Shown here in pieces: positions 7,481 to 64,000 of a stretch of DNA of 64,000 bases. The DNA is from Desulfocarbo indianensis (lineage in GTDB: Bacteria; Desulfobacterota; Desulfarculia; Desulfarculales; Desulfarculaceae), in assembly GCA_001184205.1 (NCBI GenBank), contig LBMP01000001.1:186001-250000 (forward strand). The letters run 5' to 3'. How positions within the stretch are numbered: position 1 is the stretch's first letter; each line of letters opens with the position of its first letter. The notes under the pieces are model-generated. The model made no database searches. It was not told where the DNA came from and saw nothing but the letters and a program-made list of their open reading frames with translations. Both the position numbers and the translations under genes were made by a program.

Positions 7481-7533
7481 GACCCCGGCGGCGGGGTAGC
7501 CTGACCGCTTCCCAAGGCCTCGGCAGGGGATGA

Positions 7534-7581: not shown

Positions 7582-7680
7582 TTTTGAGGGATTAAGGGCT
7601 ATTTTATATTTAATTCCTTTTATGCTTGATATCGCAAAGCCCCCCGGCAAGGACCCCGCCGGGTTAGAAAGAGATAAAGG

Positions 7681-11265: not shown

Positions 11266-11352
11266 CTCGGCCTAGGAAAAAGCCGGCGGGGAGTAGCGAG
11301 GTATAGGCATGGAAACGCGGAAGCGCCGATCAGGGCGGGTGAAAGCGGAAGG

Positions 11353-45592: not shown

Positions 45593-46642
45593 CTATCCAA
45601 CATCATTTTTCGAGAAGGCCTTGTATACTTCTTCAGTACTTTTGAAATAAAACATACCTATCAATCCGGTACTGATAATACACACGACAGAAATAATATG
45701 TAAAACTATAGCGAATGACAACGCCGACGCCTCTGGCACTTTAAAAAGTGATAATGCCATTGTCACCGAAAGGTGAAAGGTGCCAATATACCCAGGAGAA
45801 GATGGCACAGCCGCCCCGATAGTTGTAAACAGGATCACACAAATAACAACTTCTATCCCCAAAGATGTTTCCAAATCAATGTTAAAAGCTAACATGGCTA
45901 GCCACACTTGTATTGCTTGCACGGCCAGTATCACGATAGCTAATAAAATCAGTAGGTATAACTGGGCCATGCCTCCTCTTAGTTTCAGGCCATGAAAGAA
46001 GCCCCCTACAGCAGACCGAAGGATTCTTTCAATTCTATCTGGCAGTCGGCTCTTGGCGCGATCAATCAAATAGATGCTGATTTTTTCTAAGTGGCTTCTG
46101 AAGACTATCATCCCTAATAAAAGAGCTGACATTGCAGCTGCTATCAGTATCTTATAACTAATTATTTCCCCTAGAGGCGCCAGGACAATGGCTATAAAAA
46201 AGAGACAAAGCAACGATAATAAATCCCAACTCCTTTCCGTCACCATGGATGCAATTATCATACTTTTAGGTAGGCCAGAAGAGCTAGAGAATGCAATTAG
46301 CCTGACAACCTCTCCACCACGGAGAGGCAATATCATATTCCCTAAATTACCAAGTGAGTATGCGCTAAAAGCAGCTAAGAATCCTGGTTTGTTGGCTGTT
46401 TGAATTAAAACATGCCATCGGACCGTTTTTATTATCAGCCAGACAAAAGTTAGTAGCAAAGAAATTGTCAACAAAGGCCAATTTGCGCGAGAAACTGCCT
46501 CATGGATAGCATGAAAATCCGCATTCCAGAAAACTATAAATAGAGCTATAATACTGATGATTATTCCAAGGGCTGCATAACTGGCCTTACTTCTTAATAG
46601 TTCCACAACAGTACCGCCGATTCCGTCATCATCAGCGGCCAC
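45593..46642 (-). CDS. Flippase-like integral membrane protein (LPG-synthase TM / AglD-like family)
   Basis: 349 residues with about eight helices. VRWHVLIQTANKPGF, YSLGNLGNMILPLRGGEVVRL and VTERSWDLLSLL repeat the UPF0104 pattern also present in the 3147-4187 product. As a stand-alone membrane domain it is a candidate flippase for a lipid-linked sugar, and the next gene encodes a GT-C enzyme. The GTG at 46642 overlaps the end of the upstream radical SAM gene by 11 nt; another start within the first 20 codons is possible. AT-rich, unlike the homologue at 3147. Confidence 0.8.
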   Translation of the reverse strand: MAADDDGIGGTVVELLRSKASYAALGIIISIIALFIVFWNADFHAIHEAVSRANWPLLTISLLLTFVWLIIKTVRWHVLIQTANKPGFLAAFSAYSLGNLGNMILPLRGGEVVRLIAFSSSSGLPKSMIIASMVTERSWDLLSLLCLFFIAIVLAPLGEIISYKILIAAAMSALLLGMIVFRSHLEKISIYLIDRAKSRLPDRIERILRSAVGGFFHGLKLRGGMAQLYLLILLAIVILAVQAIQVWLAMLAFNIDLETSLGIEVVICVILFTTIGAAVPSSPGYIGTFHLSVTMALSLFKVPEASALSFAIVLHIISVVCIISTGLIGMFYFKSTEEVYKAFSKNDVG

Positions 46643-48080
46643 GCCGCTGCCAATAATAAGTCATATAAAAGTATATATCTGACAACATTAATTTAGGCCT
46701 TCTCGCCATATTGAGATAACGAAGCAAGAGCCTTTTCAAGAAATACCAACTATTATATGCTCTCCATGGAATAACTAATCTAGCTATTAAGCTGCGATAA
46801 TATATACCCATCAATCTCTTTATGGCCCATCGCATGTCCTGCTTGCTAAAACCATCTAGCCGAATTGGATAAAACGCCCACCTATCATAATCCGAAAGAT
46901 TTTTTAAATTAATTCGGTCTTCGGCAAGCATGAGTTTTTGAAGGTCGCTGCCTGGTGTTGGAGTAGTAATACTAACCCTAACCAAATCCGGCTTGGCTTT
47001 GATAAGCATATTGGCTGTATTTTTGATAGTGTCGCGTGAATCGCCTGGCGTCCCTACCATTAAATTGGCTGTGCTGATAATTCCATACTTTCGGCATATA
47101 TCAAAAACATCTGATACTTGCTCTACTCGATACCCCTTACGCATATAATTTAAAATTTTCTGAGATCCAGACTCAACACCAAATGCAATAGCATAGCAGC
47201 CTGCTTTGCTCATTTTTCGAGCCATTTTATCGTCAATTTGGTCTATGCGAGAATAACAGGCCCATTTCAAATTTGCGAAATGCAGTTCCATTTTATTACA
47301 AAAATCATATAGCCATTCTTTTCCATTGAACAATAAATCATCATCATTAAATAGAATAGATTTAAAATCATATCGAGAACGTAGTTCGGCTATTTCACTA
47401 ATAACATTATCCACACTACGGTATCTCATCCTTTTACCGTACATGTTTCGCACCACGGGTTGACAATAGATACAGTTGCCCTTGCACCCGCGATTGGTCA
47501 TAACTACCATTGTTGGATAAATAAATGGCATATCTGGCCTCGCGTCCAGATATCGTTGATAGTTTGCCAAACTTCTGTCCGGCCAGGGAAGCTCGTCAAG
47601 TTCCTTTATAAAAGGTCTTGCTTGATTGATTACAAATTTTCCATTTTTAATAAAAGCTATCCCTGTTACATCTTCATACGAACTTTGAGAAGAAAGCCGT
47701 TCCATTATTTCCAGCAGAGTATATTCCCCTTCACACATGACTACGAGATCTGCACCGGTTTCCTTTAGAGTCTTTTCTGGATCAATGCTTGGATGAACTC
47801 CGCCGACGATTATCCTTGGTTCAAATGGTAAACCTCGCAATTTATTTAAAAGGGTCAACCCAGATTGATAGCCTATTGAATCAGTTGACAATCCTATAAC
47901 ATCTGGTTTTTCCTTCAAACATTCGTCAAATATTTCTTGATCAGAATCAAATCCCATATCGAAGAGCCTTACTTTATGATCGGTCTTCTGGCGTAATAAA
48001 GCTCCTAATATAAGAATCCCCATAGGTGGCATATTTGAGGGTTCACGCACTTTTCGCGCATATATCAGAAAGATTTTCAC
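46632..48080 (-). CDS. B12-binding radical SAM protein (third of three)
   Basis: 482 residues. B12-type domain: NMPPMGILILGALL, RIIVGGVHPSIDPEKTL. Radical SAM core: MTNRGCKGNCIYCQPV (Cys199, Cys203, Cys206), ILFNDDDLLF and YAIAFGVESGSQKIL. GTG start at 48080. The overlap with the flippase-like gene and closeness to the methyltransferase at 48177 indicate one transcript. Related to but diverged from the other two radical SAM proteins here. The reaction could be methylation or another B12-dependent modification of a glycan or isoprenoid carrier. Confidence 0.85.
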   Translation of the reverse strand: MKIFLIYARKVREPSNMPPMGILILGALLRQKTDHKVRLFDMGFDSDQEIFDECLKEKPDVIGLSTDSIGYQSGLTLLNKLRGLPFEPRIIVGGVHPSIDPEKTLKETGADLVVMCEGEYTLLEIMERLSSQSSYEDVTGIAFIKNGKFVINQARPFIKELDELPWPDRSLANYQRYLDARPDMPFIYPTMVVMTNRGCKGNCIYCQPVVRNMYGKRMRYRSVDNVISEIAELRSRYDFKSILFNDDDLLFNGKEWLYDFCNKMELHFANLKWACYSRIDQIDDKMARKMSKAGCYAIAFGVESGSQKILNYMRKGYRVEQVSDVFDICRKYGIISTANLMVGTPGDSRDTIKNTANMLIKAKPDLVRVSITTPTPGSDLQKLMLAEDRINLKNLSDYDRWAFYPIRLDGFSKQDMRWAIKRLMGIYYRSLIARLVIPWRAYNSWYFLKRLLLRYLNMARRPKLMLSDIYFYMTYYWQRRGR

Positions 48081-49151: not shown

Positions 49152-50291
49152 TCAAATACAATCTGCCAGCAAACCGCGCAACTTTATGGCCATGGAGCGC
49201 CATGAATGGTTTTGGGCGTAAAGACGAGCTTCCCTTCCCAAAAGTTGTCTATTTGAAGGAGATGTCAGCAAATTAGTTAAGGCTAAGGCCAACGGTTCGT
49301 CCTGGCCAGGGTGTACAAGCAGGCCGTTTTCCCCATCTTTAATTATTTCTTCGGAACCCGGCACGCGCGTGGCAATCACTGGTAAACCGCATGCCATTGC
49401 TTCCAATAATGCGTTCGGCATTCCCTCATCCAGCGAGGGCAAAACAAACAAGTCGGCCTTTTGATAACCCTCGCTCAACAGGCGTTCGGAACTCCACCAG
49501 CCCAAAAATCTTACCTTTTGCTCAATCGATAGCTCATGGGCCAACTTTTTTAGCATCGATTTTTGCGGGCCGTCGCCTACCAGGTCCAATCTCCAGTCTA
49601 TATTCCGAAGCTGTACCGATGCCAGCGCTCTAAACAACACCGGCAACGCCTTCTGTCCTGAAAGACGCCCCACGAATAGAATCCTGGGCTGGGGGTTGCT
49701 GGGCAAAACATGCGGCGGGAAAAACAGGTCGGCATCCACCCCGTTAGGTATCACTTCAATCGGTATGTTCCAGCCCGTGGTCAAGGCTAATTTTTTAGCC
49801 CCCTGGCTGTTTGCGACCACTCTGGCGGAGCGCTTCCATAAAAACCGCAAAACAGGACTGGTGAGACGGTGATAATTAGCTAATTCTTCAGGACAAAAAC
49901 CAGGTATGTCTCCACCGCGCAGCATTATTAAATAAGGAGTTCCGGTCCATTTTTTAAGCCACCATCCCACTGGCCCGGAGGGCAGCCCAAAAAACGCTAT
50001 AGTCGCTTCTGGCTTAAGGTCGGCCAGCAATCGAGTTGCGCTTCGCATGGCCGAAATTATAAAGGTGATCATCTCCAATGGAGTGCAAGACTCCATTTTC
50101 GAGCGTAACGCCCGCACTCGATGGATGACATAGCCTTCGGCGGCTTCCAATTTTGCCTGATCGCGAAACCTTGTAGTTATTATTTCGACCCTGTCGCCCA
50201 ACGCGGCTAATTCCCTGGCAAAATACCGGGTTGCCCGGCCGGCGCCCCCTCCGAGGGGTGGAAATTCATAGTTGATCATCGCGATGCGCAT
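49152..50291 (-). CDS. GT4 family glycosyltransferase
   Basis: 379 residues. IAMINYEFPPLGGGAGRATR is the G-G-G-x-G acceptor loop of GT4 enzymes, and LFVGRLSGQKALPVLFRALA, LVGDGPQKSMLKKLA and DEGMPNALLEAMACGLPVIA form a complete donor domain. The ATG at 50291 shares its A with the TGA of the upstream asparagine-synthetase gene, so translation is coupled; the longer open frame runs over that gene. It probably adds a sugar before or after the putative amidation step. Donor unknown. Confidence 0.88.
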   Translation of the reverse strand: MRIAMINYEFPPLGGGAGRATRYFARELAALGDRVEIITTRFRDQAKLEAAEGYVIHRVRALRSKMESCTPLEMITFIISAMRSATRLLADLKPEATIAFFGLPSGPVGWWLKKWTGTPYLIMLRGGDIPGFCPEELANYHRLTSPVLRFLWKRSARVVANSQGAKKLALTTGWNIPIEVIPNGVDADLFFPPHVLPSNPQPRILFVGRLSGQKALPVLFRALASVQLRNIDWRLDLVGDGPQKSMLKKLAHELSIEQKVRFLGWWSSERLLSEGYQKADLFVLPSLDEGMPNALLEAMACGLPVIATRVPGSEEIIKDGENGLLVHPGQDEPLALALTNLLTSPSNRQLLGREARLYAQNHSWRSMAIKLRGLLADCI

Positions 50292-52201
50292 CAGGCGGTT
50301 TTTCCACCCTGGCAATAATTCAGCCACCAGCCCTGGAACATCAAGAGAGTCCATAACAGTTTTCGATTGTCGCGGCGTTTAGAAAGGTGATCTTTCCAAA
50401 GATGTTGCACATATCCCGGCTCGAAAATTCCTTGGCGCCGCAATAAGGCTGGCGACAGCATGTCCTGCGCCCATGACCGTAACGGGCCTGATAACCAGGA
50501 TGATATCGGAACGCCGAACCCTTGTTTGGGGCGGAATAGAAGCTCCCGCGGCAGGCGCCCCTGCAAGGCTTTTTTCAGCAAAGCCTTGCCTCCCAAGCGA
50601 GGGTGCAACTTGAATTTATCGGGCAATGCCGTGAGATAACATATTAAATGAGGGTCAAGGAAAGGAGAACGGACTTCAAGTGAATTGAGCATCGAAGCCC
50701 TATCCAGCTTGACCAGAATGTCGTTTTCTAGATAGGTGCGCGCATATAGTTGAGTTAATTGACCTAGTCCAACAAAGTCTTTTAGTTCGCCAGCCAAATG
50801 GGTTCTTGGGTCATTTTTAAGACCGGAGGCTCGTAATATTTCCGGCAATACCAGTGATTCAAGCTCTTGATAGTTGAAAGCTCCCAGCCAGGCCAACAGC
50901 CTTTCGCCGGCCGGCGCATCCATGCCTCTGGCGAACCACTTATATTTAAATGATAAGTTCAAATTACCATGTGTAACGGGCAGCAAATCAATAATCGGCA
51001 AAAAAGCTTTTACCAGTCCGCCTCCTAATCGTCCCAGTTTCCGAGCCACAACATGGGCTTTGAAAGTTGGGTAGCCTCCCAGGAACTCGTCGGCGCCGTC
51101 ACCGGAAAGAGCCACGGTGACATATCCACGTGTAAATTGGCTTAAGAGAAAAGTCGGCAGGATGGAGGCGTCGGCCAAGGGCTCGTCCAGTTTGTCAAGC
51201 ACCTTGGGCAAGACTTCCCATACATTTTTTGAGCTTAACTTTTCGGCCATGTGGTTGGTGCCTATGTGCTGTGAAGCCAAGGCTGCGCAAGCCGATTCAT
51301 CAAAGCCGGCTTCCTCGAATCCGATGGAAAAAGTTCTCACCTCCTGTCCCGCGGCCTCTTTGGCGGCCAAAGCCACGGCGCAGGAATCTATTCCGCCAGA
51401 CAGAAACAATCCTAACGGTACGTCACTAATCAATCTTCGGTTGACAGAAGCCAGAAATAACTCCCAAAACCGCTCCGCCGCCTGATCCATATCGTTGGGT
51501 ACCAGTTGACCCGCGGCTGCCCGCGCCAAGACCCAATAGGGCCTTTCGCTCCACCCACTTTGGTCCAGCCATATGTAGTGGCCGGGTTTCAGCTTCCTGA
51601 TTCCACGCCAGATGCAAGACGGGGAAGCGACGTATTCTTGTGAGAGATAGCCGAGCAGCGCGGCCAAATCCAATCCAGTGGTGGCCGCGACCTGGGGATG
51701 GGCTACCAACCCCTTTATTTCAGAAGCGAACATGATGGCGTTGCCAAGCACGAAGTAATGCAACGGCTTTTGTCCCAGACGGTCGCGGGCCAGAAGCAAT
51801 CCGCCCCGTTGGGAATCCCATAGAGCAAAAGCGAACATGCCATTCAAACGGCTTAAAAAATCAACGCCCCAGGCGCGGTAGCCTTCTATAAGTACCTCGG
51901 TATCACTCTGGGTGCGAAACTCTCCTCCTTGCTTGGCCAGCTCAGCCCTTAATTCCCGGAAGTTATATATCTCACCGTTAAACACCACTCGGACGCTCCC
52001 GTCGGCGCTTATCATGGGCTGATCACCACTGGCGAGGTCGATTATCGACAAACGCCGATGACCGAGCGTGCAGCGACTCCCGATGAACGCCCCTTCTGCG
52101 TCCGGGCCCCTATGAGCCTGGGCCAAGCACATGGCATCTATCCATTCCCTGGCTTTATTGGGAGAACCATTGAAATGGGTAAATCCTGCTATGCCGCACA
52201 T
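50291..52201 (-). CDS. asnB: Glutamine-dependent asparagine synthetase family protein
   Basis: 636 residues. Processed-type N-terminus MCGIAGFTHF with Cys2 as the glutaminase nucleophile, RGPDAEG and FNGEIYNF of the class II amidotransferase domain, then the ATP-pyrophosphatase loop LFLSGGIDS (SGGIDS at 268-273) and the adenylation/amide-forming domain to the C-terminus. Members in polysaccharide loci are thought to turn a sugar or amino-acid carboxylate into an amide; WbpS-like proteins in Pseudomonas O-antigens are the usual comparison. A housekeeping asparagine role is possible, but tandem placement with a second copy and a GT4 favours glycan amidation. Confidence 0.88.
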   Translation of the reverse strand: MCGIAGFTHFNGSPNKAREWIDAMCLAQAHRGPDAEGAFIGSRCTLGHRRLSIIDLASGDQPMISADGSVRVVFNGEIYNFRELRAELAKQGGEFRTQSDTEVLIEGYRAWGVDFLSRLNGMFAFALWDSQRGGLLLARDRLGQKPLHYFVLGNAIMFASEIKGLVAHPQVAATTGLDLAALLGYLSQEYVASPSCIWRGIRKLKPGHYIWLDQSGWSERPYWVLARAAAGQLVPNDMDQAAERFWELFLASVNRRLISDVPLGLFLSGGIDSCAVALAAKEAAGQEVRTFSIGFEEAGFDESACAALASQHIGTNHMAEKLSSKNVWEVLPKVLDKLDEPLADASILPTFLLSQFTRGYVTVALSGDGADEFLGGYPTFKAHVVARKLGRLGGGLVKAFLPIIDLLPVTHGNLNLSFKYKWFARGMDAPAGERLLAWLGAFNYQELESLVLPEILRASGLKNDPRTHLAGELKDFVGLGQLTQLYARTYLENDILVKLDRASMLNSLEVRSPFLDPHLICYLTALPDKFKLHPRLGGKALLKKALQGRLPRELLFRPKQGFGVPISSWLSGPLRSWAQDMLSPALLRRQGIFEPGYVQHLWKDHLSKRRDNRKLLWTLLMFQGWWLNYCQGGKTA

Positions 52202-52258
52202 GGGGTTTGCCTTGGAGGGGGAGTATGGCTGGCTCGGTAATTGATCGGATTGCTTACG

Positions 52259-54169
52259 TCATCGCATCCATCGTTCGTACCACATCTCGAACATCAACAG
52301 CGTCCAGAGAGGTTTGCGTAAGTCCTTGCTCCCTTTCAAATGTTCCCCAACCATAGTCGACACGACTTTCGGATCAAAGAATCCCTCCCGCCGGATGCGT
52401 CCGGCGGACAGATAATCCGTCATCAATTCTTTCAAATCGTGGCGCAGCCAGCGGCCGATGGGAATGCCGAATCCCTTTTTCTTGCGGTGAACCACCGTCT
52501 TGGGCAGCTTGCGCTCGGCCATTTTCTTCAATATGTATTTGGTGGTGAACCGGCGTAATTTCAAGCGGCTGGGCAAGCGATTCACGAACTCGACCAGTTC
52601 GTGGTCCAGAAACGGCGAACGCACCTCCAGCGAGTTGGCCATGGAGGCGCGGTCCACTTTTATGAGGATGTCGTCCTGCAGGTACAGTTTGATCATGCAG
52701 TAAAGTATCCGCTCCAAGTCCCGGTTGAGCCTGGACTGACTGAGGTAGCGGATCACGTCGGAATAGGTATATACGGTGGATAATTGTTCCCTCAGCTGCG
52801 GAAGGAACAAATCGGTCTTTTCCTCGTCAGAGAAGGAACCCATCCAGCGGAAAAACATGATCTCGGACGAGTAGCCGGCGCCGCGCATGAACTGCTTCAG
52901 TTTGAAATCCAAGCTCACGTAACGATGCTTGACCGGCAGACGCGCAATGGCCTGGTTGATCCGATGCCGGAGCGGGGATGGCAAGACCTGATAATATTTG
53001 ATGAGCTTAAGGGCCGGATAAGTTACGTATCCCGCCATGAAATCATCCCCGCCGTCTCCGGACAGCGCAACCTTGACCGAATTGGCGGTCAGCTTGGAAA
53101 GTAAATATGTCGGCACCACCGAAGGGTCGGCCATGGGCTCGTCCATGATCTGGTTGAGCTGCGGAATTACATCGAGAAGCTTTTGCTCGTTTAGCTTTTC
53201 ATAATAGAATTCGGCCCCGCATTGTTTAGCCACCCTCTGGGCCCATTGCGTTTCATCAAACGATGGGTCTTCAAAGCCTATGGTGAAGGCCCTCATGGGC
53301 TGTGGATAGTGGCGTTGCGCCTCAATCGCGACCAGACTCGAGTCGACTCCTCCCGATAAAAACACTCCGACTTCCACATCGCTCATTAAACGGCGTTTTA
53401 CGGCTCTCTCAAAAAGCTGCTCCAATTGTTCGATGCAATCTTCCTCTTTCAATCCGTAATTATCGTCCTCGGCGATATTGAGATCCCAATAATGCGTCAA
53501 TTTGATCTCGCCGCGCTCCCAGACCAGCATCTGACCCGGCTCAAGCTTTTTCACTCCCTCTAGGATGGTTTCCGGAGCCGGCACATATTCAAATGAAAGG
53601 TATTTATACAAAGCCGGCAGGTTGATGCGGCGCTGGAGCAAAGGATGCCTTAGCAAGGCCTTGATCTCGGAGCCGAAAAGCAAGGTGTCGCCGATCTGGC
53701 AATAGTGCAAGGGCTTGACCCCTATCCGGTCCCGGACCAGCACTAATCGCTGGCGCTTGGCGTCCCACAAGGCAAAAGCGAACATCCCCGCCAATTTATT
53801 AACAAATTCCAGGCCAAGCTCCTCATAGAGATGGACGATGGCCTCGCAGTCACTGCTTGTGGCCAGGCGATGCCCTTGTCCTTCCAACAAGGGGCGCAGT
53901 TCGGGATAGTTGTATATCTCGCCGTTGGCGATAAGGGCCAAGGTGCCATCTTCGTTAAAAAGCGGCTGGCGGCCGGTGGATAGGTCGACGATGGATAAGC
54001 GGCGGTGCCCAAAGGCAACCCAAGCCTGTCCTTCATGGAATGGGCGAACGAAATGAAGCCCCCATTCGTCCGGCCCGCGATGGATCAAAGAGGAAGCCAT
54101 GCTGGTGATGACTTGCTCATCGATGGCCTCCGGTCGACTTATGCTAACTACGCCGCAGATGCCGCACAT
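52259..54169 (-). CDS. asnB: Glutamine-dependent asparagine synthetase family protein, second copy
   Basis: 636 residues, the same length as its downstream neighbour but clearly diverged. MCGICGVVSI with Cys2, RGPDEWG, NGEIYNYPELR, the SGGVDS loop (272-277) and SLEVRSPFLDHELVEFVN are all intact, so both glutaminase and synthetase sites look functional. It lies 57 nt upstream of the first copy on the same strand. A good promoter sits immediately upstream. The duplication suggests two different acceptors, possibly two carboxylated sugars, rather than redundancy. GC content is intermediate between the AT-rich block and the flanks. Confidence 0.88.
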   Translation of the reverse strand: MCGICGVVSISRPEAIDEQVITSMASSLIHRGPDEWGLHFVRPFHEGQAWVAFGHRRLSIVDLSTGRQPLFNEDGTLALIANGEIYNYPELRPLLEGQGHRLATSSDCEAIVHLYEELGLEFVNKLAGMFAFALWDAKRQRLVLVRDRIGVKPLHYCQIGDTLLFGSEIKALLRHPLLQRRINLPALYKYLSFEYVPAPETILEGVKKLEPGQMLVWERGEIKLTHYWDLNIAEDDNYGLKEEDCIEQLEQLFERAVKRRLMSDVEVGVFLSGGVDSSLVAIEAQRHYPQPMRAFTIGFEDPSFDETQWAQRVAKQCGAEFYYEKLNEQKLLDVIPQLNQIMDEPMADPSVVPTYLLSKLTANSVKVALSGDGGDDFMAGYVTYPALKLIKYYQVLPSPLRHRINQAIARLPVKHRYVSLDFKLKQFMRGAGYSSEIMFFRWMGSFSDEEKTDLFLPQLREQLSTVYTYSDVIRYLSQSRLNRDLERILYCMIKLYLQDDILIKVDRASMANSLEVRSPFLDHELVEFVNRLPSRLKLRRFTTKYILKKMAERKLPKTVVHRKKKGFGIPIGRWLRHDLKELMTDYLSAGRIRREGFFDPKVVSTMVGEHLKGSKDLRKPLWTLLMFEMWYERWMR

Positions 54170-54495: not shown

Positions 54496-56313
54496 TTAGC
54501 TGAGAAAGGCCCCAATGCCGGTCGGCGTGACCGGGGCCAATAAGCCGCGCAAAGCCCCTTTCGCCCGTTTTCGCCAGAGTTCTCTTTCCGGGCGAGGCAG
54601 ATCGCGCAGTGATTTTAACGCTTCAAGCAACTGGTCTGGATCACTCGCCTCCCAACGCAGGCTCTCCACGGCTTCCAAGTTGTCGATGTTGGGGAACCCC
54701 TCCAGACGCAACAACACGGGCGGCACGCCCCGTCCCAGGGCTTCCAAGCCAACCGACGTCCCATTGTACAGGACAACTTCGGCCCAATCCAACAATTCCG
54801 GGATGGGAGCATTCACCATTTCCAGCCGCGAGCCGCCCGGCCAAGTCCTCAACTGACCCAGGACGCGCGCTTGATCAAGCGCGGGATGAAGCTTGACGCG
54901 AACCATGAAATCGCGGCTTTTGGCCATCGCCAAGGCGGCGATATGCATCATCTCCATCGACTCTCCCAAACCTATGGGAGAGGCCAGCAGTACACGCAGC
55001 GGACCATCCGACTCGCCCTGGGCCGGCGGGGCTGTCCGCTCCTGCCACAAATAGGCGTGGCGGATGGCGCAACCCGTGGCGACCGTCTCCGGCGGCCAGC
55101 CTTCTTCCTTAAAAACCCGACTGCAAATCGGGCCGTTGCTGACCAAACGATCCGGCAGGGGCCTTAATCCGAACTCGCTCGGGGCCGGGTACATGGAATT
55201 TTTCAGGCGGCTCAAGGTGAGGTTGTCATATCCCGCTATGCGGGCGGAAGGCCAATGGCGCCGCACGGCCAGAGCGAGCAGGCTCTCCCACGGCTGTCCT
55301 TCCATAACGTGAATCACTCTCGCCGGCCGCACGCCGGCCCGCGCCAACCCTCGCACCAGAGGCTCCATGGTCAAGGCGTTAATCAAACCGCCTTTCAGCG
55401 TCAGGTTCTCCTGGGCCAAGGACAAGAGCGGCAGCCCGTCCACTCCATCGTCCGCCGGGATGCGGGGCTGGTATGCATGCGCCCTGGCGTGGCAGGCGAT
55501 CAGGTCCTCGGCCGTCAGCGCCGCCTCGGGCAGAAAGACCGTCTGGGCCGCCGGGTCCAAGGCGCCCGCCGCCTCCGCGGGAGTCAAGCCGGGCAACAAG
55601 GTCGGCACCCAAGCCAACCGCAGGCCCCTTTTGGCCAATTCAGCGGGCAGGACGCCAAAGTAAGGGTCCTGCAGCCGCCCGTCGGGTCCCAGGCTGCGCC
55701 GGTCCATCCAGGTGAAGAGCAGCGCCGTGTCCGGTCCGGCGAAAGCCTGGGGGGAAAAGGACATCACCTCCGCCGGCGGCGGGTCTCCCCGCGGAGGGGC
55801 CGGAACCGCCGGCGCCGCGGAGGACGCAAGCCAGCTCCGAAGCCTGGTTTTCAACCTAAGCCATAATCCATCCGACGCGGGCATGGTTCCGGGAATCAAT
55901 CCCCGCGCGGCCACCCCCCGGGACCTGGCCAGTTCGGCCACGCCTTGCAGCAGTCCCGGACTGGCGCAAACCACCAGGCAGGGGTCGGGCAATCCCTCGT
56001 CCAGCAATTGGCGGGCAACGGCCAAAAGGCAAAGCCGGGGAAAAAAATAGGAGTATATGTTGCGCCCCGCCAGCTCGGTGCCCCACCAGGTCTCGTCGTG
56101 GGCGTTCACCCGCGAAAGCCGCCCGATCCATTCCAGGTAGGGCTGGCGCAAGCGCCATGCGATTGCATCGAGCCGGCCGCCCAAACTCAATCGCGGCAAG
56201 CTTGCAAGGAGGCCCGTTTGCAGCTCCAGGCGGCGCGATGAATCCTCGCTGAGGCAAAGCCAATGGCCGGGCGCCGGGCCGGGCCAAGACGGCATATCTG
56301 CCATGCGGACCAT
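54496..56313 (-). CDS. Large GT-B-like surface-carbohydrate biosynthesis protein
   Basis: About 605 residues from ATG 56313 (GTG 56322 is also possible); the open frame continues upstream over the kinase gene without homology. The C-terminal third has LLASPIGLGESMEMMHI, VRVKLHPALDQARVL and VVLYNGTSVGLEALGRGVPP, a GT-B donor-site pattern found in capsule and teichoic-acid-type transferases. The full-length layout recalls, from memory, the uncharacterised TIGR04326-like surface carbohydrate proteins. It is immediately downstream of the sugar kinase and cytidylyltransferase, so it is a candidate transferase for the CMP-ulosonate. Neither donor nor acceptor is proven. Confidence 0.7.
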   Translation of the reverse strand: MVRMADMPSWPGPAPGHWLCLSEDSSRRLELQTGLLASLPRLSLGGRLDAIAWRLRQPYLEWIGRLSRVNAHDETWWGTELAGRNIYSYFFPRLCLLAVARQLLDEGLPDPCLVVCASPGLLQGVAELARSRGVAARGLIPGTMPASDGLWLRLKTRLRSWLASSAAPAVPAPPRGDPPPAEVMSFSPQAFAGPDTALLFTWMDRRSLGPDGRLQDPYFGVLPAELAKRGLRLAWVPTLLPGLTPAEAAGALDPAAQTVFLPEAALTAEDLIACHARAHAYQPRIPADDGVDGLPLLSLAQENLTLKGGLINALTMEPLVRGLARAGVRPARVIHVMEGQPWESLLALAVRRHWPSARIAGYDNLTLSRLKNSMYPAPSEFGLRPLPDRLVSNGPICSRVFKEEGWPPETVATGCAIRHAYLWQERTAPPAQGESDGPLRVLLASPIGLGESMEMMHIAALAMAKSRDFMVRVKLHPALDQARVLGQLRTWPGGSRLEMVNAPIPELLDWAEVVLYNGTSVGLEALGRGVPPVLLRLEGFPNIDNLEAVESLRWEASDPDQLLEALKSLRDLPRPERELWRKRAKGALRGLLAPVTPTGIGAFLS

Positions 56314-56348
56314 TTGCCGCACGGTGGCCAGATAAAGTCCGCCCCGGT

Positions 56349-57398
56349 TCAACGCAGAATTCGCCCACTGAGCCCCGAGGCCATGACTTGAAGCACCTCG
56401 GCCTCGCTGAACCGGCAGGGGTCTCCGCGGAGGGTATGCTTCAAGGCCCCCAATGCCACGGCGAAATTCACTGTCCGCCCCCCTTCCCAGCCGGACAGAA
56501 CCCCGTGAACCACTCCGGCGGCGAAGGCGTCGCCCGCCCCCACGCGGTCCACCACCGGCCTGATCAGGATTTCCTCGCCCGGCCAAACCTCAAATCCTTC
56601 CGGCGAGCGCTGAAAGAGCAAACCTCCGAAGCCGTTTTCGCTGGCGCTGATAGAGCGGCGCAGGCTTATGGCCAGGGTCTGAAGCCTGGGGAAACGGGCC
56701 ATGGCCTCGCGCGCCACCGCGGCGTAGGCGGCCGCCGGGTCGGTCTCCGGGCCGGGGGCCAAGCCGAACACGTCCCGCCAATCGGTCTCATTGCCCATGA
56801 TTAGGTGGCAGCGCCGGCAAAGCTCCCCCATCACCGCGGCCACCCGCTCCGCGCGCTCGGATTCTTCCATATAACGCCAGAGCTGGGAGCGGAAATTCAG
56901 GTCCAGGGAGACCGGCACGCCGCTCTCGGCGGCCGCGGCCAAACCCGCCTGCAAGGCCCTGGCCGCCTGCGGCGAAAGGGCTGGAGTGATTCCCGAGACG
57001 TGCAGCCACTCCACGCCGGCCAAGGCCGACCGCCATTCTTCCGGAGACGGCTCCCAAAGGGCCAGGGACGAATCGGCCCGGTCGTAAACCACCCGGCTGG
57101 GCCTGGGGCCGCCTCCGAGTTCGGTCCAGTAGCAACCCAGCCGCTCGCCGCCCCTGGCGACAAGGCTGCTGTCCAGGCCGCAGCGGGCCAGTTCCCCCAC
57201 GACCAAATCGCCCAAGGGATTGGAGGGCACCCGGGTCATGTGGCGGCAAGAATGGCCCAGGGCGGCCAGCGCGATGGCCACGTTGGATTCGCTGCCGCCG
57301 GGCTCCACCCGGAAAATGCCCGCGTCCGCCAGGCGCCTTCCCGCGTCCTGGGGCGAGACGCGCAGCATGGTCTCGCCGTGGGTGAGCACCCTGGCCAA
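56349..57398 (-). CDS. PfkB-family sugar kinase, 2-keto-3-deoxygluconate-kinase-like
   Basis: 349 residues from TTG 57398, chosen because RVLTHGETMLRVSP (a standard KDG-kinase opening) follows directly and GGTGGGG lies 9 nt upstream. GGSESNVAIALAALG is PfkB signature 1; DRVGAGDAFAAG (from residue 284, Asp290 the catalytic base) is signature 2. Family members phosphorylate ketodeoxysugars or other sugars with ATP. The gene starts 3 nt after the kdsB-like stop. A kinase for a 3-deoxy-2-ulosonic acid or its aldose precursor fits the neighbouring aldolase and cytidylyltransferase. A catabolic KDG role is less likely in this operon. Confidence 0.85.
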   Translation of the reverse strand: MARVLTHGETMLRVSPQDAGRRLADAGIFRVEPGGSESNVAIALAALGHSCRHMTRVPSNPLGDLVVGELARCGLDSSLVARGGERLGCYWTELGGGPRPSRVVYDRADSSLALWEPSPEEWRSALAGVEWLHVSGITPALSPQAARALQAGLAAAAESGVPVSLDLNFRSQLWRYMEESERAERVAAVMGELCRRCHLIMGNETDWRDVFGLAPGPETDPAAAYAAVAREAMARFPRLQTLAISLRRSISASENGFGGLLFQRSPEGFEVWPGEEILIRPVVDRVGAGDAFAAGVVHGVLSGWEGGRTVNFAVALGALKHTLRGDPCRFSEAEVLQVMASGLSGRILR

Positions 57399-57400
57399 GG

Positions 57401-58141
57401 CTAAGCGCCCCACCAGGAACGGGTCACTTCGCGCACCGTCTCCAGATCGCTGGGCGTGTCGACCGCAACCGTATCCTGGTCCACCACTATCATGCGCACC
57501 TTGATGCCGTTTTCGATGAAGCGCAAAAGCTCTATGCCCTCGGCCCACTCCAGGGGCCCCATGGTCTGGCCGGCGAACGCCCGCAGCGCGGCCGGGGTGA
57601 AGCCGTACACGCAGACCTGTTTGTAATAGACCACTCCCTTGGTTTCCTTGGGGTAAGGCACCGGCAAACGCGAGAGATAGACCGCGTCCCCCCTGGCGTT
57701 GGCCACCACCTTGGGAACCGTGCTGTCCATCAGGTCGGTCTGCTTTCTGATGGGGGTCATCAGATTGCTGACTTCAAAATCCGGACGTTCGCTCTCCTGA
57801 AACGGTTTTATGGCCGCCCTGATGGTGTCCGGCTCCAGGGTGGGTTCATCGCCCTGGATGTTGACGTACAGGTCCGCGGCAATCTTATCGGCGACTTCGG
57901 CCAGACGGTCGGTGCCGGTGGGATGGCGGTCGGAGGTTATCACCGTGGGGATGCCCAGATCGGCGCAGGCTTTTTCGATGCGCTGATCATCGGTGGCCAC
58001 CACCACTTTGGACAGCTCACCGACCGCGGCCGCCCGCTCGTAGACCCTGGCCACCATGGGCCGCCCGTGGATGTCGGCCAGCGGCTTGCCCGGGAAGCGG
58101 GTGGATTTGTAACGCGCCGGTATCACGCCTAGTATGTTCAT
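57401..58141 (-). CDS. kdsB: CMP-Kdo synthetase-like cytidylyltransferase
   Basis: 246 residues from ATG 58141 (a TTG two codons upstream is possible). ILGVIPARYKSTRFPGKPLA is the CTP-binding signature of KdsB, ATDDQRI and VNIQGDEPTLEPD are the further conserved blocks, and the C-terminus VDTPSDLETVREV is normal. It activates a 3-deoxy-2-ulosonic acid with CTP. No kdsA, kdsC or kdsD gene is present, and the neighbours are an unusual aldolase and a kinase, so the true substrate may be a Kdo variant or another ulosonate; the standard housekeeping kdsB function cannot be excluded. Confidence 0.87.
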   Translation of the reverse strand: MNILGVIPARYKSTRFPGKPLADIHGRPMVARVYERAAAVGELSKVVVATDDQRIEKACADLGIPTVITSDRHPTGTDRLAEVADKIAADLYVNIQGDEPTLEPDTIRAAIKPFQESERPDFEVSNLMTPIRKQTDLMDSTVPKVVANARGDAVYLSRLPVPYPKETKGVVYYKQVCVYGFTPAALRAFAGQTMGPLEWAEGIELLRFIENGIKVRMIVVDQDTVAVDTPSDLETVREVTRSWWGA

Positions 58142-58177
58142 TGGCAACTATTCCTTTTCGGGCCGCCGCCCCATGGT

Positions 58178-59893
58178 TCAGTCCAGATAATTGGAGATGC
58201 CCTTGTAAAACTCCTGATAATCGGTCGGCGTGAGGATATGGATGCCCTCCAGCCCCCTGGCTTCCGCGTATTGGTTGATCTGGCGCAGGTAAAGCAAGTT
58301 CAATTCGTGTTTTTCACGAATCACTTCCTGGTTGGCGGTCTCGTCCGGCTCTTGATAAAAGTGCGAATCGCCTCCCGCCGAAACGCTCAGATAACCGTCC
58401 ATCCCCACGACGAAGACGCGCTGGGCTCCCATCACCAGGGCGATGCCGCAAAGAAGCACCGAAACGGTTCGGCAGCTGGTGGAAACGACTCCCTCGGCGA
58501 TATCGAAATCGGACAACCTGTTCTGATAGACCAGCCATTCATAATCGCGGTTGGTGTGCTCGCGTATGAACGCCTGGTCGAAATGGCTTCCCAAAAGGAG
58601 CTTCGAACCAGGGTGCGCCTTCGCCACGTACTCGATGAAACGGCGGCGATTGGCGAAGGCGTGGTAATGGGGCACGAAAAGATCGCCCAGATAATTGGCG
58701 CCCAGGATTATGGGATCATGTTTGGCAATGAAGCGGGCCACGCGCTCGGAATAATCGCTCAGGCTGGGGCCGGCGGCCAGGACCAGGAAATCCCTTCCCG
58801 CATGCCTGTCCCGGTAGGTCACCGGCGGCAGGGTGAAGACGGGCGCCGCTTCCTTGTCTTCGGCCATCCTGCTTCGGTGGTTGTTTTCCTGGCCTCCCAC
58901 CATGCCGCTGGCGACCAATTGGTCCAGCACCTCGCGCGAAAAACCGATCCCGCCGCGCTGTCGCACCACCCGCAGCGCCTTCCAAATTTCTTCTATGGTG
59001 TGCTCCCGCCTTTCCGAAAGCTCCAGAGAGTAATTGGGGTGCAGGTCCAGGAGACCGCTCAGCATGAAGGGCAGTTGATATCCCCACGGCTTTTTTTGCT
59101 TCAAGGCTATGAAATGGCGGTCGATGGTGTTGAGCAGCGGCAGCACGCTGAAACGGTCCGGCAGGCGGTCCTGAAGATAGGCTATTAGAATCTCCAAGGG
59201 CAGATTGCCGGCCGCCCTGCCTATGCCGTACAAGGTGGCGTCTACGATATCCACTCCGCAGCGGATCGCTTCCAAGGTGTTGGCGAAAGCCATCTGAAGC
59301 TGATTGTGGGGATGGAAGCCCACCTTTATGCCGGGTATCTCTTGGAGGGGCGCCAGGAATTCCGCTATCTGATGCGGATACATGGAGCCATAGCTGTCGG
59401 CCACGTAGGCATAGTCGACGGGCGCGCCCTCGAGCAGGCCGCGCAGCCCCCGCCGCTCGGCCTGCGAATAACCGGAATAGCCCATGAGCTGCAAGGAGGT
59501 GGTGTAGCCCTTGGCCTTGATGGTCTCGAGCTCCTTGAGGGCCCCATCCAGTTTGTCACGGTGGGCGGCGACCCGCACCATTTCGGCGACGCTTTGCGAA
59601 CGGGGGGGCAGGTCGGCGGGGTCAAAACGCCCCGAGTCCACCATCACTGAAACATCGGCGCCTTTGATGCCGGCCACCGCCTCGGCCAGGGCCGTCTCCG
59701 GGGAGAAACGCCATAATCCGTACTTTTCGGGATCGAAGAATTTCCGGCTGCCATGGTAGCCCAACTCCACCATGTTCACCCCGGCTTTTGATGAAGCGCG
59801 GTAGACCTCGCGCACCAAATCGGGCGAGAAACGCCAATTGTTCAGGTATCCGCCGTCGCGGATCGTACAATCCAATATTTGGGGAGCTATCAT
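58178..59893 (-). CDS. Fusion of HMGL-like aldolase and Maf/GT42-like domain
   Basis: 571 residues. Residues 1-335: a DmpG/HMG-CoA-lyase-like TIM-barrel aldolase with LDCTIRDGGYLNNW (Asp8, Arg12, Asp13), the metal-binding GFHPHNQ (His194, His196) and GIGRAAGN (223-230). Residues about 366-571: a second domain with FLVLAAGPSLSD (AGPSL at 374-378), VSTSCRTVSVLLCGIALVMG and RVFVVGMDGYLS, resembling the Maf (DUF115) and GT42 sialyltransferase folds that use CMP-nonulosonates. Aldolases of this type join or cleave pyruvate and an aldehyde. The protein may both form and transfer an ulosonic acid. It lies 36 nt upstream of the kdsB-like gene. Confidence 0.75.
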   Translation of the reverse strand: MIAPQILDCTIRDGGYLNNWRFSPDLVREVYRASSKAGVNMVELGYHGSRKFFDPEKYGLWRFSPETALAEAVAGIKGADVSVMVDSGRFDPADLPPRSQSVAEMVRVAAHRDKLDGALKELETIKAKGYTTSLQLMGYSGYSQAERRGLRGLLEGAPVDYAYVADSYGSMYPHQIAEFLAPLQEIPGIKVGFHPHNQLQMAFANTLEAIRCGVDIVDATLYGIGRAAGNLPLEILIAYLQDRLPDRFSVLPLLNTIDRHFIALKQKKPWGYQLPFMLSGLLDLHPNYSLELSERREHTIEEIWKALRVVRQRGGIGFSREVLDQLVASGMVGGQENNHRSRMAEDKEAAPVFTLPPVTYRDRHAGRDFLVLAAGPSLSDYSERVARFIAKHDPIILGANYLGDLFVPHYHAFANRRRFIEYVAKAHPGSKLLLGSHFDQAFIREHTNRDYEWLVYQNRLSDFDIAEGVVSTSCRTVSVLLCGIALVMGAQRVFVVGMDGYLSVSAGGDSHFYQEPDETANQEVIREKHELNLLYLRQINQYAEARGLEGIHILTPTDYQEFYKGISNYLD

Positions 59894-59894
59894 T

Positions 59895-61883
59895 TTATCT
59901 CCATGGCCCTTTCCCAGGCTTGCCGGCCGCTTCCCCGGCCGAGGCGGTAAGCCTGCTTATCAGCGCCCCCACGGGCTCAATTTGCTCCGGGCGCCATTTG
60001 TAGGGCGCGAAAATTTCGTCCGGCACCTGGCGGCCGCAGTGCAGGGAAAGGGCCTGTTCCAAGCCCGCGGCCAGGTCCCGGCCCTGGGTGACTTCGTAGA
60101 CCGCCCGGGGGGACGTCAGGTCCGGGTCGGGCAAGGAATGGCCTGCGATATGCCGGTAGGGGCTGGTGCGGCCATAGATCAACACGGGAATCCGGTTCTG
60201 CAAGGCCTCTTCCTGGGTGGTGGAGCAGAAAGCGACCAAAAGGTCCGCCACCCCCAGGACCTCGAGAAAGCCGCCTTCCGCCGAGATGGTGAATCGCTCG
60301 GATTCGGGCAGAAGGCAGCGCAGATCTCGCTCGGTCAAGGCCGGCGAGGAGCGGAAGCGGATCACCAGCCTGGCCTCGGGTATGGCCTCGATGGCCTGAA
60401 TCACGTCCCGAAGCCCCGCTATGTACTCATCGGCCGTTTCCAGGGCATAGGGATGGAAGCCGTCGCGGTGCTTTATGGAGCCGGCGTGCATGACCACCCT
60501 TAAATTGGGCTCGTCGCCGAACCACTGCCTGCGTAAGGCCCGGCTCCGTTCAGGCTGGATGGGCGTGCCCCAGGCCAGGGGGCGGGTGCGTATATAGCGG
60601 GTGAAGGTGGTCAGGTTTTGGACGTGCTCCTCGGCCAGGGGCGTCTGCAGAGCGGCGAAGTCGTGGGTGGAATGCATCAGGCCCCTGCTGTGATGCCACC
60701 AGGCGAGGCGCTCCGCTTCGTTCTTCATGGCCGTGAAAGACCCGTGGCTGATGACCAGGCTGGGGGTTCCCAACCCGCGGCCGTATTCGACGATGGCGTA
60801 ATGATCTTCCCGGGTGTAGGCCGAAACCGCCAGGGAGGGGCGCAGGCTCTCCATTAGGCTGACCGCGGACCAGAAGTTGCGCTGCAGGTAAATCAAGTGC
60901 GGCAAGATTCCATCGCGCACCTTGGCCATGATCTCGGGGGCCAGCGATAGGCCCCTCACGCTGGCCAGCTCCCGCTCCTTGTCCAGTTCCCGGCAAAGAC
61001 GGTATATCTCCGCCTGCAGGCCCTTGGCGTCCAGCGCCTGGCCGTCGAAGAACAGACCCAGGTTAACCTGGGCGGCAAAGGGCGGCTTTGGCAGGGGCAG
61101 CCCGCCCGGCGGGTCGGCCAAGGCCGCCCGCAGGCTCTGGCTTGCGCTCAGGGGGCGGCGGTTAGCCAGCAACGCCCACCTTCTTTCGGGCAAGGCCTTC
61201 AACGCCTCCTCGGCCACCTGGTCCATCTGGCGGTCAGGGTTGCCGGCCAGAATGGGGCCGCGTCCGATCGAAGACAACAGGCGGCGGCGATAGACGGCCC
61301 TTGCCAGACGGCGCAGCAGGCGCCGGTGCAAGCGGTCCCCTCCCCAATCCGCGGCGTGTTGGGGTTTGCGCGGCGGACGGTCTTCAAGCCAGCTCAGGTC
61401 GTGGAAGCGCCTCCCCCGTATTGCGCACAGACGGGCGGCCAACGCCCCTATGTAGCTCTCCTGCGGCAACAACCGGGCGTTTTGGTTGGGGGGGGATGGG
61501 TCCAGCGCGGCCCAGACCTCCGCCCCGGGGTGGTCGGCCATGGCGTTATCCAGCACAATGGCCAGCCAGCCCAAATAGTTGGTGAAAAAACGCAGGTTCC
61601 ATTGCAGGGTGTCGCGGTAGGAGTCGCTGAAGCCATATTGGTCGCGATAAGCGAAAGCGCGTTCCAGCCACTCATAGATATCGCTGGAAAAGCGCAACGC
61701 CTCTGCGTGGCATTCGGGAGGGAAAAACGCCAGCGTGTCGCGACAGGGCAACCCCAGCCGCCGCGTCTGAGCGGCCACCTGCGGCGTCAAGGCAACCAGC
61801 AGATCCAGCTCGCCGGGACCGGCTTGGCGATAAGCCGTCAGGTCCTGGTCCATTTCAATGCATATAATACGTTTGATTTCCAT
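59895..61883 (-). CDS. Large GT-B-like surface-carbohydrate transferase
   Basis: 662 residues, no signal peptide. The C-terminal part has VVMHAGSIKHRDGFHPY, IEAIPEARLVIRFRSSP and VADLLVAFCSTTQEEALQNR, then PVLIYGRTSPYRH, a GT-B pattern related to Kdo-transferases and CDP-glycerol glycerophosphotransferases. The N-terminal 350 residues, with many aromatic helices, are unfamiliar. It starts 1 nt before the aldolase fusion begins its own gene boundary (spacing 1 nt), so the two are in one operon. It may transfer the CMP-ulosonate made by this operon or a polyol phosphate. Function not established. Confidence 0.65.
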   Translation of the reverse strand: MEIKRIICIEMDQDLTAYRQAGPGELDLLVALTPQVAAQTRRLGLPCRDTLAFFPPECHAEALRFSSDIYEWLERAFAYRDQYGFSDSYRDTLQWNLRFFTNYLGWLAIVLDNAMADHPGAEVWAALDPSPPNQNARLLPQESYIGALAARLCAIRGRRFHDLSWLEDRPPRKPQHAADWGGDRLHRRLLRRLARAVYRRRLLSSIGRGPILAGNPDRQMDQVAEEALKALPERRWALLANRRPLSASQSLRAALADPPGGLPLPKPPFAAQVNLGLFFDGQALDAKGLQAEIYRLCRELDKERELASVRGLSLAPEIMAKVRDGILPHLIYLQRNFWSAVSLMESLRPSLAVSAYTREDHYAIVEYGRGLGTPSLVISHGSFTAMKNEAERLAWWHHSRGLMHSTHDFAALQTPLAEEHVQNLTTFTRYIRTRPLAWGTPIQPERSRALRRQWFGDEPNLRVVMHAGSIKHRDGFHPYALETADEYIAGLRDVIQAIEAIPEARLVIRFRSSPALTERDLRCLLPESERFTISAEGGFLEVLGVADLLVAFCSTTQEEALQNRIPVLIYGRTSPYRHIAGHSLPDPDLTSPRAVYEVTQGRDLAAGLEQALSLHCGRQVPDEIFAPYKWRPEQIEPVGALISRLTASAGEAAGKPGKGPWR

Positions 61884-62065: not shown

Positions 62066-63325
62066 CTAACCCGCTCTCCACTCGGCGGGTATTTCCACCA
62101 GGCCGGGAGCGGACACCGCGCTCAGGCCGCGCCCGCCCACGGCGTTGCGCGCCGGCAGCATCGAAAGATCCGCCAGGCGAAGCGACTTGAAGAGCACTCC
62201 ATCCTGGTCGAAGATGGTTAGATTGAAGATATAGGCGCCCTCGCGCAGGGGCAACCCCGCCACGCGGCACTCCATTTGCCCGCTTTGGGACGGCTCCATG
62301 TTCCTATCGGGCATCACGAAGCTGGCGACGAAGACGCCGTCGATGGTATGCAGTCGCAACACCGCGGTAACGCCTTTAAGCGGAGACCGGTTTTGATAGG
62401 TCATGCGCAGGGCCATGGAATCGCAGAGATTGAAATTATCCCGGCGGTTCCCGCCCCCGTCCAGCATTTCCACCCCCGTGAGACGGAAGCGCTCCGGGGC
62501 CAGGTTGACGCCCAATTCGGAGCCCGCCCGGTTGCCCCCGGCCTGGCCGTTTTGCAGGGAAATCTCGTTGACCAGGGCGTGGTAATTCCGGCAGATATCC
62601 GAGGTCTCTCCCATGGATTCCATCCGGCCGCGGTTCAGGAGCAGCGCGCGCTGGCATACCCGCTCCACGTGGGCGATGTTGTGGGACACGAAGATTACGG
62701 TCACGCCCGTTTTAAGCACCTCGTTCATGCGCTGAAGACACTTGCGGTTGAAAGCCATGTCGCCCACCGCCAGCACTTCGTCCAGCAGAAGCACATCGGG
62801 ACGCATGTGCGCCGCCACCGAAAAGCCCAAGCGGACCCGCATCCCCGAACTATAGGACAGGACCGGGGCGTCGATGAAATCGGCCAGCTCCGCGAACTCC
62901 ACGATCTGGTCGAACTTTTCGCGCAACTCCGCCTGGGAGATGCCGAGGATGGCCGCGCTGACCTGCACGTTTTCCCGGCCGGAGAGAATCGGGTTGAAAC
63001 CCGCCCCCAAGGCGATCAGCGCCCCCACCCTGCCCTTTACCGAAACCCAGCCCCGGCTGGGGTTGATCAGTCCGTTGATGATGCGCAGCAGCGTGGTCTT
63101 TCCGCTGCCGTTGGGCCCGATCAGGCCCAGCGAGTCGCCCCGTTCCAGGGAGAAATCAATCTCGCGCAGGGCCCAAAACTCATGCGGCCGGAGACCCGCC
63201 TGGTCGTCCTCCCGTCCAAGCACGGCCCGGCCCAGGTCGGTGAGCCCGTACCACAGCGCGTGCCTGAAACGGCGGCAGAATTTCTTTGAGAGCCCCGCCA
63301 CCCGGATTGCGGTCCGTTGATCCAT
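62066..63325 (-). CDS. wzt: ABC transporter ATP-binding protein with C-terminal glycan-binding domain
   Basis: 419 residues from ATG 63325, which shares its A with the TGA of the permease gene. Walker A GPNGSGKT (70-77), signature LSYSSGMRVRLGFS (157-170) and Walker B VLLLDEV (178-184) are intact. After about residue 255 comes a beta-rich domain (RFRLTGVEMLDGGG to the end) of the Wzt_C type, which in E. coli O8/O9a binds the chain terminus before export. With Wzm it flips undecaprenyl-diphosphate-linked polysaccharide across the inner membrane. The C-domain implies a terminal modification that must be recognised; the local methyltransferases are candidates. Confidence 0.9.
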   Translation of the reverse strand: MDQRTAIRVAGLSKKFCRRFRHALWYGLTDLGRAVLGREDDQAGLRPHEFWALREIDFSLERGDSLGLIGPNGSGKTTLLRIINGLINPSRGWVSVKGRVGALIALGAGFNPILSGRENVQVSAAILGISQAELREKFDQIVEFAELADFIDAPVLSYSSGMRVRLGFSVAAHMRPDVLLLDEVLAVGDMAFNRKCLQRMNEVLKTGVTVIFVSHNIAHVERVCQRALLLNRGRMESMGETSDICRNYHALVNEISLQNGQAGGNRAGSELGVNLAPERFRLTGVEMLDGGGNRRDNFNLCDSMALRMTYQNRSPLKGVTAVLRLHTIDGVFVASFVMPDRNMEPSQSGQMECRVAGLPLREGAYIFNLTIFDQDGVLFKSLRLADLSMLPARNAVGGRGLSAVSAPGLVEIPAEWRAG

Positions 63326-64000
63326 CAGGCGTTCATCCGCTCGATCAGAATGGGCATGGCGATGCGGAAGCAAGCCCAAGCCAGGAGCAGCAACAGGATG
63401 GCTCCCAGGCATAATCCCGCGCACAGCCAGGGGTCGGACAGGGTTCCCAGGGTGGCCAAATCCCGCGCGGCGGTGAGAAGGGGGGCCACGGGGTTGAGCT
63501 TCATGATCAAGCCGAACCAGCCGGACTGGGGCGGAGGATAAACCACCGGCGTCACCAGAAACCAAAGCATGGTCAAATGGGGCAGGGCCAGGCTTATATC
63601 CTTATACAAGGTGGCCACCGGGGTTATGAGCAGCCCCAGGGAAAGACCCAACAAGATGAGAGCCAACATGGCCAGGGGCGAGAAAAAAGCCCCCCAGCTC
63701 ACCGGGGAGCGGAAGACGGCCATAACCGCGGCCAGCAGGGCCATCTTGACGAGCAGTTCGAAGACCAGCCTGCCCGCGGCGGCCAGCATCAGCGACTCGC
63801 GCGGGAAGTTCACCTTGGCCAGGATGTCCTGGTTGGCGGTCACCGCCAACAGGGGGGCGCTGAAGCTGGCGGAAAAGAGCTGCCAGAGTATGGTACCCAT
63901 CATGGCGTACACGGGATAGGGGATGTTGGTCTCGCCCAAGTTCAACACGTTGCGGCTTTGCAGAACGATGAAGACCAAGGCGGTGGCCAGGGGCGAGAGC
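63325..64000 (-). CDS. wzm: ABC-2 type polysaccharide export permease, C-terminal part
   Basis: The frame is open to the window edge, so the N-terminus and first helices are missing. The visible 224 residues include IPYPVYAMMGTILWQLFSAS, FPRESLMLAAAGRLVFELLV, LALPHLTMLWFLVTPVVYPP and LNPVAPLLTAARDLAT, the usual sequence of Wzm/ABC-2 permease loops. It pairs with the overlapping Wzt gene to export a completed polysaccharide. Its gene overlaps the wzt start by one base. No Wzx or Wzy was recognised in the window. Confidence 0.88.
   Translation of the reverse strand, partial: LSPLATALVFIVLQSRNVLNLGETNIPYPVYAMMGTILWQLFSASFSAPLLAVTANQDILAKVNFPRESLMLAAAGRLVFELLVKMALLAAVMAVFRSPVSWGAFFSPLAMLALILLGLSLGLLITPVATLYKDISLALPHLTMLWFLVTPVVYPPPQSGWFGLIMKLNPVAPLLTAARDLATLGTLSDPWLCAGLCLGAILLLLLAWACFRIAMPILIERMNA

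Follow-up and report, generated by a model that had tools for sequence, protein, structure and literature searches.

A candidate aldolase-based route to CMP-activated ulosonic acids in Desulfocarbo indianensis

Operon layout and the aldolase domain

The stretch of DNA analysed here, the window, comprises 64,000 nucleotides of the Desulfocarbo indianensis genome (GCA_001184205.1, contig LBMP01000001.1, positions 186,001 to 250,000). Its minus strand carries an operon around a fusion protein in which an HMGL-type aldolase precedes a domain related to the Maf and GT42 families. The genes run in the order 662-residue candidate glycosyltransferase (GTB1), fusion, KdsB-like synthetase, PfkB-family kinase and glycosyltransferase-B (GT-B)-like protein (GTB2; Table 1), with 1 nt between the first two, 30 nt between the fusion and the KdsB-like gene, and overlapping starts further downstream. 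The open reading frames (ORFs) listed for the kinase and GTB2 are judged overlong because their 5′ ends overlap the upstream gene. An original prediction had read this operon as a possible new ulosonic-acid pathway; all the features that it described, including the kinase, the KdsB-like gene and an aldolase fusion with both domain motifs in one frame, were found at the positions that it gave.

The aldolase motifs (D8-C-T-I-R12-D13-G-G and H194-P-H196-N197) are in frame, and the domain matches PF00682 with 78.5 bits (cut-off 29; E 7e-22). An AlphaFold2 model of the fusion has a mean pLDDT (predicted local distance difference test) of 89 and is close to 3dxi, the N-terminal domain of BVU_2661 (Z 32.3, 29% identity), and to DmpG (1nvm; Z 29.2). 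On profile match and predicted structure, residues 5-318 are a TIM-barrel aldolase of the HMGL-like (DRE-TIM) superfamily. Among 61 homologues, the metal ligands D13, H194 and H196 are invariant together with R12 and N230. The motifs are considered to be beyond chance because their residues are invariant or nearly so down to ~21% identity.

Table 1. Coordinates of the operon genes, the domains of the fusion and the adjacent exporter within the window.
Feature	Position	Strand	Remarks
662-residue candidate glycosyltransferase (GTB1)	59895..61883	-	without family or PDB-sequence match
571-residue fusion (FUS), N-terminal HMGL aldolase and C-terminal Maf/GT42-related domain	58178..59893	-	one intact frame
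Aldolase domain of fusion, residues ~5-318	58940..59881	-	R12, D13, H194, H196, N230 invariant; Y16 replaces DmpG base His
C-terminal domain of fusion, residues 356-571	58181..58828	-	conserved G375, N400, N415, R418, G497-x-D499-G500, T555
Putative KdsB-like CMP-ulosonate synthetase, dedicated paralogue	57401..58147	-	TTG start, or ATG at 58141
PfkB-family sugar kinase	56349..57413	-	ORF reaches 57548; true start 57413-57368
GT-B-fold protein (GTB2), predicted	54496..56352	-	ORF reaches 56586; true start probably 56352-56295
Wzt-like ABC export ATPase, upstream of operon (context)	62066..63565	-	
Wzm-like ABC export permease (context)	63325..63978	-	

Distribution of the fusion and its coupling to a synthetase

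The fusion is known from many phyla and is not unique to the window. Homologues with 44-53% identity occur in ~20 genomes (Desulfobacterota, Brocadia, Omnitrophota and others), and ~45 more distant proteins (21-27%; gut Firmicutes, Bacteroidetes and others) cover both domains. A genome scan with the window protein alone gave no match, and the homologues were found with a two-sequence alignment as query. Cultured carriers include Pseudogracilibacillus auburnensis, Polaribacter porphyrae, Ruminococcus bromii and Leisingera caerulea; relatives on Leisingera plasmids have 536 residues, are annotated as “aldolase catalytic domain-containing protein” and are followed by “kdsB” and a HAD hydrolase gene. 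One locus (L086) has two tandem fusion copies (6870-8459 and 10001-11602) that are separated and flanked by several CMP-transferase genes, which suggests two ulosonic acids in one locus. Searches of open-access literature yielded no description of an aldolase/CMP-synthetase pairing, of BVU_2661 function or of pyruvate-dependent ulosonate synthesis.

The link between the fusion and a KdsB-like cytidine monophosphate (CMP) transferase is conserved in other genomes, as the original prediction required. Of 70 loci, 44 have a CTP_transf_3 ORF no more than 1.5 kb from the fusion, and the density of such ORFs in this zone is 2.51 per 10 kb compared with 0-0.53 per 10 kb farther away. In four loci, from Campylobacterales (L056), Pseudogracilibacillus auburnensis (L064) and Sulfurovum (L069 and L089), aldolase, middle domain and KdsB-like enzyme form one ORF of 768-781 residues in which the middle domain is intact. 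The pair also occurs in Gram-positive Firmicutes. A phosphonate-type pathway was set aside because the synthetases adjoining the fusion are of KdsB/NeuA type. No KdsA-like gene was found in any fusion locus, and a NeuB-family gene accompanies only 13 of the 61 fusion loci that have a CMP-synthetase, the other 48 being without one; among the proteins encoded in the loci, this leaves the aldolase as the best candidate for making the ulosonate.

The window synthetase matches PF02348 (1e-43) and scores 153.7-154.1 bits against TIGR00466 (kdsB), just below the cut-off of 155.2. Canonical KdsA (394 bits) and KdsB (219.8 bits) are encoded elsewhere in the same genome, so the predicted lack of kdsA is true of the operon and not of the genome, in which a search for both genes found kdsA and a second kdsB. 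In a phylogenetic tree, 31 canonical KdsBs form one clade (support 0.60), and fusion-associated enzymes fall into group I (28 sequences including that of the window, support 0.99) and group II (11 sequences, support 0.98). The cytidine triphosphate (CTP) and metal residues (PARY Arg, PGKP Lys, QGD Asp and VD Asp) are invariant among complete sequences, the window enzyme included. A His and a Gln kept in 31 of 31 canonical KdsBs, where they are pocket residues that contact 3-deoxy-D-manno-octulosonic acid (Kdo), are Q and L in the window enzyme, mostly Q and I/L in group I (His kept in five) and M/A and Y/L in group II. This change likely reflects specificity for ulosonates other than Kdo. These comparisons support the view of the window enzyme as a dedicated paralogue whose ulosonate pocket is altered, and its likely product is a CMP-activated non-Kdo ulosonate because the canonical His and Gln are replaced.

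Alternatively, the operon could add ordinary Kdo, made by KdsA and KdsC encoded elsewhere and activated by the KdsB paralogue, with the aldolase serving a separate task. The canonical KdsA in the genome agrees with this, as does the narrow shortfall of the paralogue from the kdsB cut-off (153.7 vs 155.2 bits). Some capsule loci are also known to carry a second KdsB (KpsU), and the best PDB match of the window enzyme is 1gq9, which we presume to be KpsU. Such an arrangement is nevertheless unlikely given that four genomes encode synthetase and aldolase as one polypeptide, that the pocket His and Gln are replaced, and that the pair is present in Gram-positive Firmicutes, most of which lack lipopolysaccharide.

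Gene fusion, neighbourhood and synthetase paralogy lend strong support to the idea of an aldolase-based CMP-ulosonate pathway. The operon probably serves to produce a CMP-activated 3-deoxy-2-ulosonic acid and to put it to use, with an HMGL-type metal-dependent pyruvate aldolase in place of the phosphoenolpyruvate (PEP)-dependent KdsA or NeuB. Several observations weigh against this. A separate CMP-synthetase gene is missing within 9 kb in 12 of 53 distant loci, some of which are triple fusions. The canonical KdsB references all come from relatives of the window's genome, so that their clade (0.60) partly reflects taxonomy. In the C-terminal domain, no His is conserved across the family to match the GT42 base, in a region where the alignment is weak. 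Finally, the catalytic base His of DmpG, which follows RDGS, is replaced by Tyr16 in 61 of 61 members; a DmpG-type aldol mechanism should therefore not be assumed. The aldolase domain also stays below the TIGR03217 (DmpG) equivalog cut-off (113.1 bits vs 286). Of the aldolase originally predicted, the metal site (R12, D13, H194 and H196) is thus kept in 61 homologues and the DmpG-type catalytic His is Tyr in all.

The loss of this base, and the presence of citramalate and homocitrate synthases and lyases in the HMGL superfamily, could mean that the enzyme cleaves its substrate, or that it joins a 2-oxo acid to an acyl-CoA in a Claisen-type condensation that gives a branched acid instead of a 3-deoxy-ulosonate. 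We regard this as improbable: after 3dxi, the nearest solved structures are 4-hydroxy-2-oxo acid aldolases, and the aldolase is fused to a KdsB-like synthetase, a type of enzyme whose known substrates are ulosonic acids.

The C-terminal domain, candidate transferases and kinase

The AGPSL (G375) and GMDG (G497-G500) motifs of the C-terminal domain lie in the same frame as the aldolase. The domain was judged by sequence profiles; Foldseek and VIA-align searches with the full fusion model listed only aldolase-type matches, and the missing GT42 enzymes there are uninformative. Among PDB sequences, the top matches to a profile of 34 members are CstI/CstII-type sialyltransferases (E 0.001-0.007). 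PF01973 matches the window domain with 22.7 bits, under its gathering cut-off of 34.6, and matches 18 of the 34 members at E≤1 (best 1.6e-8); CST-I (PF06002) matches only two of them. With hhalign, the domain aligned with PF01973 proteins of related genomes at 89.4% over 140 columns and with CST-I at 83% (reversed controls 0.2% in both cases), the CST-I sequences having been drawn from a genome sample of the same order as L101. PF06002 was not found in four Campylobacterota genomes that hold the fusion. Published work describes the Maf_flag10 domain (pfam01973) as similar to Cst-II, and CMP-activated ulosonic acids, Kdo among them, as substrates of Maf enzymes (PMC11339370). By these profile comparisons the domain is a distant relative of CMP-ulosonate transferases, and it may share their activity. 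The Maf/GT42 relationship of the original prediction is supported by profile homology to Maf (PF01973) and less surely by the CST-I matches, without evident conservation of the GT42 catalytic His. The window's genome also encodes a separate PF01973 protein (L165, G000:C1:1185554-1186045; a 517-residue open frame above the family cut-off), possibly a flagellin Maf.

In a different reading, the C-terminal domain is an MptE-like phosphotransferase, a nucleotide-binding domain or a scaffold and the GT-B neighbours perform the transfer. PF01973 includes the MptE diphosphokinase, 8sd5 is among the matches, and the family has no conserved His for a GT42 mechanism. In L097, moreover, an aldolase without the C-terminal (middle) domain adjoins a CMP-synthetase, and the profile of GTB2 has KpsC, a beta-Kdo transferase, as its best PDB matches, although weakly (E 0.008). 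Against this stand the CstII/CstI sialyltransferases as best PDB sequence matches of the domain and the use of CMP-ulosonates by Maf enzymes with a related domain (PMC11339370). A role other than glycosyl transfer is accordingly possible for this domain, if somewhat doubtful.

Of the GT-B proteins, to which the original prediction gave a possible transfer role, GTB1 has no Pfam, NCBIfam or PDB-sequence match and its GT-B fold was not confirmed; its homologues lie upstream of the fusion in five loci (L033, L034, L036, L039 and L050). GTB2 (54496-56586) models as a generic GT-B-fold protein: top Foldseek matches are GT-B enzymes or related epimerases (best E 4e-11) with a TM-score to target of ~0.5-0.6, in a model with mean pLDDT 75 and residues 1-104 disordered. 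In many related loci, a homologue of GTB2 comes after the gene for the synthetase or for the kinase.

The kinase matches PF00294 (90.5 bits, cut-off 25.8), retains the GAGD motif and is closest to KDG kinases and to the kinase half of KHG/KDPG aldolase-kinase fusions. The order FUS-KdsB-PfkB recurs in Polaribacter porphyrae (L055) and a Bacteroidetes locus (L063), and a PfkB gene is also close to the fusion in L033, L034, L036, L045, L087, L095 and L103. The suggestion that PfkB always accompanies the fusion was rejected, as it does so in only nine of 74 non-redundant loci. Twelve non-redundant loci, most with an HpcH/HpaI aldolase, have an LdpA-like Fe-S protein and a HAD phosphatase in its place, and the order FUS-KdsB-HAD occurs on a Leisingera caerulea plasmid. 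The conserved LdpA-like 4Fe-4S and HAD module adjoins the fusion in L040 (11701-14596), with similar ones in L035, L037-L039, L041, L042, L044, L046, L051-L053 and L061. The two sets occur together in no locus (Fisher p 0.026 in the close group, 0.18 overall), which is only suggestive of mutual exclusion.

Elsewhere in the window, two adjoining asparagine-synthase-like amidotransferases (50291-54169), relatives of the XrtA/PEP-CTERM exopolysaccharide type, are both below the model cut-off. Three ORFs of the glycan region (34396-35775, 37050-38507 and 46632-48080) resemble a radical-SAM-like gene that adjoins the fusion in another genome (G053, L030:1083-2726). Within the polysaccharide cluster are also large ORFs without Pfam match (26604-28286, 39309-41246 and 43511-45583; 560, 645 and 690 residues) and a 755-residue DUF6044 protein (31864-34131; 416 bits).

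Proposed pathway and comparison with known systems

In the proposed pathway, the aldolase domain would form a 3-deoxy-2-ulosonate by joining pyruvate enolate to an aldose or its phosphate. PfkB could phosphorylate the acceptor sugar or an intermediate; related loci have a HAD phosphatase module instead. The KdsB-like enzyme, with a pocket altered relative to Kdo enzymes, would couple the ulosonate to CMP, and the Maf/GT42-like domain or the KpsC-like GT-B neighbour would transfer it to a surface glycan that the adjacent Wzm/Wzt transporter may export. We infer the condensation, the acceptor sugar, the role of the kinase and the identity of the true transferase. More tentatively, the fusion loci might represent a widespread, undescribed CMP-ulosonate class in which an HMGL pyruvate aldolase replaces KdsA/NeuB, in which C-C bond formation, CTP activation and transfer sometimes share one polypeptide, and which has at least two product types that correspond to synthetase group I (PfkB loci among others) and group II (mostly Fe-S/HAD/HpcH loci).

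To our knowledge, PEP-dependent synthases serve in the established biosynthesis of CMP-activated ulosonic acids (Kdo, Kdn, and sialic, legionaminic and pseudaminic acid). If true, a conserved route through a pyruvate aldolase would be a new branch of rare-sugar biosynthesis. It would explain many “aldolase catalytic domain-containing protein” genes beside “kdsB” in surface-glycan loci, including those of gut bacteria, and could become a one-protein tool for CMP-ulosonate production.

The window aldolase shares the TIM barrel and the Arg-Asp and HxH metal-site motifs with DmpG/BphI (1nvm), and pyruvate enolate chemistry is expected of both; it differs in Tyr16 in place of the catalytic His, in the invariant W270, H285 and Y288, in the fused transferase-like domain and in its glycan-locus setting. 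The closest solved aldolase domain, from BVU_2661 of Bacteroides vulgatus (3dxi), was likewise deposited as the N-terminal domain of a longer protein. Maf (PF01973) and GT42 (CstI/CstII) enzymes use CMP-activated ulosonic acids and share with the C-terminal domain a distant profile similarity, with GPSL, Asn and GxD motifs in matching order, whereas the window domain falls below the PF01973 cut-off, lacks the Maf flanking domains and an evident GT42 His, and is fused to an aldolase. KpsC, the capsule beta-Kdo transferase, and GTB2 both occur in glycan loci, but their similarity is too weak for membership and a structure search with GTB2 gives generic GT-B enzymes only. Like the Kdo pathway (KdsD-KdsA-KdsC-KdsB-WaaA), the proposed route would end with KdsB-family CMP activation of a 3-deoxy-2-ulosonic acid, and related fusion loci add a HAD phosphatase. 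In contrast to that pathway, the fusion loci have no KdsA, an HMGL pyruvate aldolase would stand in for the PEP-dependent synthase, the KdsB pocket residues differ, and synthesis and activation may share one polypeptide.

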